Origin: Halonotius pteroides | Lineage (GTDB): Archaea; Halobacteriota; Halobacteria; Halobacteriales; Haloferacaceae | Assembly: GCF_003605635.1 (NCBI RefSeq) | Contig: NZ_QMDW01000002.1 | Span: forward strand, 1-64,000 | DNA: 64,000 bases | Direction: 5' to 3' | Shown: positions 24 through 925 of the stretch, in pieces | How the letters are laid out: the number at the start of each line of letters is the position of its first letter | How positions within the stretch are numbered: the stretch's first letter is position 1 | Translations under genes and position numbers: made by a program | The notes under the pieces: model-generated | Database searches by the model: none | What the model saw: only the letters and a program-made list of their open reading frames with translations | Told to the model about the DNA's origin: nothing

Positions 24-305
24 CTAATGGGCTGTCTGGAGCTTAGGCGATAACGGGTGCAATCGAACGGTCTGTACTGAGAACGAAGAATACGTCGTGA
101 ACGACCCACAGGCACCAGTGCCAATCAAGAGGGCAGCCTCCTTTGGAAGACCAGCAAACGCCACCAACGCAAGAACAAAACTTCCGATTACGTTCACGCC
201 AAGCGTCCCAACTGGGAATCGGTCGTGTTGGAGTCGCATGCCAACGTAGTGTCGGAAGACAGCACCGATGGCACCACCTGTTCCAACGAGATGGGCTGGC
301 TCCAT
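24..305 (-). CDS. crcB: CrcB/Fluc fluoride channel subunit, C-terminally truncated
   Basis: Member of the CrcB/Fluc family, whose dimers export fluoride through the membrane. Visible are TM1 with the GGAIGAVFRHYVG motif (residues 9-21), TM2 with PVGTLGVNVIGSF (about 32-44) and TM3 with the GSFTTYSSFSVQTV pore motif (about 67-80). The protein ends 12 residues later with a non-hydrophobic tail and a stop at 24-26, so TM4 is absent. It is 93 residues against about 120-135 for the family and for its upstream partner. Its ATG overlaps the partner stop codon by one base (TGATG), so translation is coupled. It may be a decaying gene or one half of a heterodimer with altered topology. Confidence 0.8.
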   Translation of the reverse strand: MEPAHLVGTGGAIGAVFRHYVGMRLQHDRFPVGTLGVNVIGSFVLALVAFAGLPKEAALLIGTGACGSFTTYSSFSVQTVRLHPLSPKLQTAH

Positions 306-715: not shown

Positions 716-719
716 TATT

Positions 720-777
720 GGGCGAGATAGGAGTCATCAGCCGTGTCGGCGGTTGGGGCAGGCGGACTCCATCGCCC
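720..777 (-). ncRNA. Fluoride riboswitch (crcB motif RNA)
   Basis: Read on the minus strand, this segment begins GGGCGATGGAGTCCGCC, continues through CAACCGCC and GGCTGATGACTCCTA, and ends TCTCGCCC. These blocks match the conserved pieces of the crcB-motif fluoride aptamer: GGCGATGG.GT.CGCC, AAC.GCC, GGCT.ATGAC.CCTA. The outer strands GGGCGA and TCGCCC pair as a perfect 6-bp P1. It lies directly upstream of a crcB gene, which is the natural target. The P1 3' strand ends 4 nt before the ATG, which suggests control of translation initiation rather than a terminator. Confidence 0.92.
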
Positions 778-925
778 GAATCAACCCACAGGGGGATGCT
801 GATTGCTTCCGACGACAACCCTATGAGAATTACGATACGATATGCAACCTCTTTATCTTGCACAGCCCGATCTCCCAGATTTGAGACAGATTTCGTTGTT
901 TCACTACTCTCGGTAAGAACCAACG

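Follow-up and report, generated by a model that had tools for sequence, protein, structure and literature searches.

The fluoride riboswitch, also known as the crcB motif RNA (RF01734), occurs in bacteria and archaea (Weinberg 2010, PMC2864571). In the transcriptional switch of Bacillus cereus the aptamer is built from P1, P3 and a pseudoknot, names that we adopt here, a downstream strand competes with the aptamer and excludes it, and an intrinsic terminator is present (PMC11077080). The Halonotius pteroides locus analyzed here has the same aptamer, and a similarly competing downstream strand is proposed below, but it has no terminator. An archaeal fluoride riboswitch, that of Thermococcus kodakarensis, was reportedly studied by Speed in 2018. 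Translational control of fluoride export is presumed for it where PMC8241225 and PMC9855744 touch on it. The T. kodakarensis riboswitch transcript has been described (PMC4247193); there the RNA precedes TK0513, whereas the one studied here precedes crcB. In haloarchaea, structured translational leaders are termed untypical and 72% of the protein-coding messages of Haloferax volcanii are leaderless (PMC4983044). A synthetic theophylline switch has already been used in this group (PMC8241225).

We analyzed a stretch of 64,000 nucleotides (64 kb) of H. pteroides DNA, referred to as the window (contig NZ_QMDW01000002.1, positions 1 to 64,000). Its riboswitch matches the described class (PMC2864571) in the whole aptamer, the pseudoknot and the crcB context and differs from it in lacking a terminator and a Shine-Dalgarno site and in a start codon placed 14 nt downstream of the aptamer. 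The RNA class is known already, and the more interesting lead is a candidate family-wide platform beside the AUG. About 80 natural riboswitches at a fixed short distance from an AUG without Shine-Dalgarno site would offer a direct test of leadered, Shine-Dalgarno-free initiation control, and the haloarchaeal fluoride riboswitches might serve in haloarchaea as inducible switches of natural origin.

The aptamer and its locus in H. pteroides

Within the window, RF01734 (Fluoride) is the sole Rfam match at gathering score: cmscan places it on the minus strand at 785..721 with E 9e-12 and 52.8 bits, the gathering score being 34. A scan of the 3.0 Mb genome returned no second copy of the aptamer. 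The match covers model positions 1-64 of 64. A first-pass annotation had read a fluoride riboswitch with all conserved blocks on this strand and had named the covariance-model search as its check; the search bore this out. The consensus alignment places the conserved joining nucleotides AACCGCC and GGCUGAUGA as well as the P3 hairpin in the window aptamer, and the loop of the P1 hairpin pairs with a 3' strand to form the pseudoknot. The minus strand reads GTTGATTC GGGCGATGGAGTCCGCCTGCCCCAACCGCCGACACGGCTGATGACTCCTATCTCGCCCAATA ATG. This RNA is a sound member of RF01734. It lies in the 5' region of a fluoride-export gene, crcB1, whose ATG (715-713) is 14 nt downstream of the aptamer, and the earlier assignment of this gene to crcB holds since the 136-aa ORF matches PF02537 (Table 1).

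Table 1. Features of the crcB locus in the window
Feature	Position	Strand	Basis
Insertion sequence end, splits crcB2	1-68 (IS part 1-59)		terminal CTTAGGCGATAACGGGTG and 9-bp target duplication CAATCGAAC
crcB2, 5' part only, 93-aa ORF, insertion-interrupted	24..305	-	PF02537, E 2.4e-21, profile positions 2-76 of 103
crcB1, fluoride channel subunit, 136 aa	305..715	-	PF02537 (CRCB), E 1.3e-18
Linker from aptamer to ATG, 14 nt, TATCTCGCCCAATA; contains TCGCCC (725-720)	716..729	-	sequence
Fluoride riboswitch aptamer, full-length RF01734 match	721..785	-	cmscan
Pseudoknot 3' strand GACUCC, partner GGAGUC (770-765)	730..735	-	U-A to C-G compensatory change in relatives
P3 hairpin GCC/GGC (750-748 with 742-740)	740..750	-	covariance model; invariant in 15 sequences
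P1 hairpin GGGCG (777-773) / CGCCU (764-760)	760..777	-	covariance model and relatives
Pseudoknot 5' strand GGAGUC, inside P1 loop	770-765	-	covariance model
Candidate small 5' hairpin CCC..GGG, directly upstream of aptamer	785..795	-	sequence comparison
Candidate promoter block CATATCGTATCGTAATTCTCATA	822..844	-	identical in Halosimplex aquaticum (L137), same spacing to aptamer

The secondary structure was compared with 15 related sequences in a gap-free alignment. P1, P3 and the pseudoknot were 99.0% paired in these relatives, compared with 36-52% for slid registers, and two compensatory pairs were present, one in P1 (C-G to U-A) and one in the pseudoknot (U-A to C-G). The first-pass annotation had taken another helix, GGGCGA/TCGCCC, for P1. 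Its two segments are indeed there (777-772 and 725-720), and the second ends 4 nt before the ATG, but they do not form P1: in the covariance model GGCG has its partner in the nearby CGCC, and this pairing takes up the same 5' nucleotides. Because the 5' strand is common to both, this helix and the true P1 are mutually exclusive. In the 15 relatives 51% of its cells were paired, which is the level of slid registers; no covariation was found for it in this set, and 152 of 500 shuffles reached its covariation score.

The candidate promoter block upstream of the aptamer is shared with H. aquaticum, and the spacer between block and aptamer has diverged between the two. Judging from this block, the aptamer region is probably transcribed, with a predicted start about 20-25 nt upstream of the aptamer. 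In the relatives, an A/T-rich block lies at -34 to -30 from GGCG (A/T up to 77% against a background of about 40%), which would fit a TATA box if transcription began some 25-30 nt further on, at the 5' edge of the aptamer. In the closest crcB lineage (the window together with loci L002, L137, L138, L148 and L151) the promoter is shifted upstream by about 17 nt relative to other haloarchaea, and a conserved CCC-N4-6-GGG element, for example CCCYYTGTGGG, lies directly 5' of the aptamer, possibly an extra hairpin.

A shortened crcB2 overlaps the end of crcB1. Positions 1-59 of the window repeat at other contig ends of the genome. The remainder of crcB2 was found at the end of contig C82 beside the same terminal sequence CTTAGGCGATAACGGGTG, and a 9-bp repeat (CAATCGAAC/GTTCGATTG) flanks the break on both sides. 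The shared end and the repeat indicate that crcB2 was broken by an insertion sequence with target duplication; a plasmid BLAST gave no match that would name the element. No crcB besides the window pair was found in the genome. Two-gene crcB loci often suggest a CrcB1/CrcB2 heterodimer channel, and if the channel is of this kind, the strain may be impaired in exporting fluoride. The upstream neighbor on the same strand (926-2485) codes for a membrane protein of 519 aa that contains an HTTM domain (PF05090, E 1.2e-8).

Spacing and pre-start segments in haloarchaeal relatives

Of 391 Halobacteria genomes, 67 have an RF01734 match; the counts are 18 of 170 for the family of the window and 11 of 146 for that of genome G212. 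The two weakest, partial matches, namely that in G289 and the second one in G201, were dropped as chance. The haloarchaeal set comprises 84 riboswitches from 39 genera, 77 loci of which entered the first comparison. In 71 of these 77 loci the distance from the aptamer (pseudoknot) to the ATG is 12-20 nt. The short spacing, which the first-pass annotation had singled out as a compact expression platform worth testing, is therefore a trait of the class in haloarchaea. GGRGG was absent from the 12 nt before the ATG in all 77 loci and present in 5.6% of the 196 control starts, which are mechanically called first ATGs of long ORFs from the same genomes, some of them wrong.

Two peculiarities were seen in the set. 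Many f4 loci (e.g. L043, L045, L057-L063) have a P3 enlarged by long variable insertions, with matches of up to 114 nt. Their RF01734 scores fall below the gathering cut-off because of these insertions, and the standard threshold appears to overlook genuine riboswitches here. At L031 and L032 (G297 and G359) two RF01734 aptamers lie about 400 bp apart on the same strand of one locus, one preceding crcB and the other an ORF of 68-72 codons.

The nucleotides directly before the start codon carry a signal of their own. CAGC[C/T] lies within the last 12 nt before the start codon of 49% of the crcB genes that have a riboswitch and of 1% of the 196 other starts, and CAGCC stands directly before the ATG in 42% of riboswitch loci. 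A general haloarchaeal start context was rejected since none of the 196 controls ends in CAGCC, and an ancestral crcB feature was rejected as well, the motif being absent from 12 of 12 placeable riboswitch-free crcB starts. A further locus from the riboswitch-free set (G257) proved to contain what looks like a degenerate aptamer; the segment before its ATG ends in GAGCC. CAGCC is complementary to the aptamer GGCUG, made up of the P3 3' strand and joining nucleotides. Alternative segments before the ATG are CAUCAGCC (8 bp to GGCUGAUG), the type of Haladaptatus halobius and Halorarius halobius, GUCAUC (to GAUGAC) and GAGUCAU (to AUGACUC).

The longest complementary run between linker and aptamer 3' part exceeded that of composition-preserving shuffled linkers in 34 of 39 genera, with a mean excess of 1.53 bases and a Wilcoxon p of 7e-9, a value that overstates independence because the genera share ancestry. 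Complementarity to the aptamer 5' part, which is a fair internal control, showed zero excess (17 of 39 genera, p 0.93). Genus g5 has a matched change from GAUGAC/GUCAUC to GACGAC/GUCGUC, one candidate covariation arising from a single event; in the 15-row alignment no compensatory change was found for the 3'-half helix. By ensemble folding, the start region was paired at 0.53 compared with 0.50 with random linkers, and in the window it was less paired than with random linkers (0.37 against 0.50). Occlusion of the start codon by free-energy folding was rejected for want of an overall excess over random linkers, and the complementarity signal thus has no backing from folding energy.

In ensemble folding, pairing of the start region reaches 94-95% at loci of G359 and G297. 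At the loci L004 (G359) and L006 (G297) an apparent 11-bp hairpin joins the linker and a pseudoknot strand (AUGACU..CUGUC / GACAG..AGUCAU). It takes in the AU of the start codon, contains a G-U pair in the G297 version and is, by eye, the clearest start-occluding platform.

Most relatives show linker complementarity of the anti-P3 type, with runs of 7-8 to the aptamer 3' part in Halorarius, Haladaptatus, G482, G212 and G418. It is lost in the window, where the complementarity of the linker to GGCUGAUGAC (anti-P3, CAGCC-type) amounts to a run of 3 (p 0.78). H. aquaticum (L137, NZ_CP118158.1) likewise has no segment against the aptamer 3' half. Its CrcB is the closest to that of the window (85% for crcB1), followed by that of a Halorarius halobius plasmid (64%) and by those of a Halostagnicola larsenii plasmid (G057 locus) and G212 (60-62%). 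The window and H. aquaticum also share the promoter block, the 5' hairpin and the aptamer, and their linkers are equally long; H. aquaticum differs in its intact crcB2 and in its linker sequence, TACCATGCCCTACA. The crcB of the congener G402 belongs to a type further removed from that of the window (74% at the DNA level over 205 bases). This pattern of relatedness and the several plasmid copies point to horizontal transfer in the history of the window crcB.

Models for the control of crcB

We consider it likely that the RNA is a true fluoride riboswitch that turns crcB on, most probably at translation initiation, through release of the linker and AUG. The first-pass annotation had noted that no Shine-Dalgarno site precedes the crcB1 ATG, which is the rule across the haloarchaeal loci too, and that there is no terminator; the 14-nt linker indeed contains no terminator-like U-run before the ATG. 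For these two reasons translation initiation, the level it had proposed, would be the likeliest. Fluoride would stabilize the pseudoknotted aptamer (P1 GGGCG/CGCCU, P3, GGAGUC/GACUCC), and the 14-nt linker and the AUG would thereby be left open to the ribosome. Without fluoride, aptamer strands would pair with the linker beside the AUG and hinder initiation. The competitor in most haloarchaeal relatives would be the aptamer 3' half (GGCUGAUG) with CAGCC or CAUCAGCC before the AUG, and the complementarity seen in 34 of 39 genera suggests that the haloarchaeal set shares an ON switch of this translational, Shine-Dalgarno-free kind. More specifically, the 5-8 nt touching the AUG may serve as an anti-aptamer strand for the 3' half (P3 3' strand, joining and pseudoknot nucleotides) and may have been lost or replaced by an anti-P1 segment in the lineage of the window; to this platform we give an even chance of being right.

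In the window, where the anti-3'-half segment is missing, GGGCGA with UCGCCC would be the only strong competitor left. It may be a lineage-specific OFF helix, in which case an anti-P1 segment would have been swapped in for the ancestral anti-P3 segment. Without fluoride the helix would then replace P1, tie up the linker 4 nt from the AUG and hold the pseudoknot strands paired in a rod, to be released by fluoride. When a transcript begins directly with the aptamer, its minimum-energy fold does contain this helix, nested outside the pseudoknot strands (pair probability 0.77-1.0), and H. aquaticum, whose linker differs from that of the window at 5 of 14 positions, keeps GCCC, so that GGGCG could pair with UGCCC (one G-U). 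With a 25-nt leader and 30 nt of coding sequence, however, the probability of the helix drops to 0.12-0.15 while that of the true P1 rises to about 0.8, and the helix falls to 0 once 60 nt of coding sequence are included; a leader of this kind is what the probable promoter position leads us to expect. Nor does the helix stand out in strength (duplex energy p 0.11 against control starts). Among the 196 unrelated haloarchaeal starts, 4.6% show six-base complementarity between the pre-ATG segment and the aptamer 5' part and 9.2% show it to the whole aptamer; for shuffles of the window linker the figure for the whole aptamer is 6.9%. As the OFF helix also rests on two sequences, we regard it as doubtful.

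Control of transcription by premature termination, or of mRNA stability, in place of initiation would agree with the many bacterial fluoride riboswitches that overlap terminators (PMC2864571, PMC11077080). It is improbable here, as a 14-nt linker without U-run is too small for a terminator and the spacing to the ATG is uniformly 12-20 nt. A decaying switch, in which the aptamer is a relic, would account for the insertion in crcB2, the lost anti-aptamer segment and the chance-level complementarity of the linker to the aptamer 3' part. Against such decay, which we judge improbable too, the aptamer has all conserved blocks intact and scores 52.8 bits, and H. aquaticum lacks the segment as well, yet its crcB2 is intact.

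The original model, in which GGGCGA/TCGCCC closes the aptamer as P1 and the bound aptamer abuts the AUG, has the perfect complementarity of the segments 4 nt from the ATG in its favor but is hardly credible, since the covariance model, the pairing in relatives and the comparison with slid registers rule the helix out as P1, one 5' strand cannot serve two pairings and the congener G402 lacks the 3' strand. Inside a bound aptamer the helix would moreover crowd the start codon, opposite to the ON logic expected for crcB. The idea that the 5' flank and the linker generally join in a closing helix was also rejected, as such a helix reached p <= 0.05 at only 2.6% of loci. The two segments could at most form a competing OFF helix.
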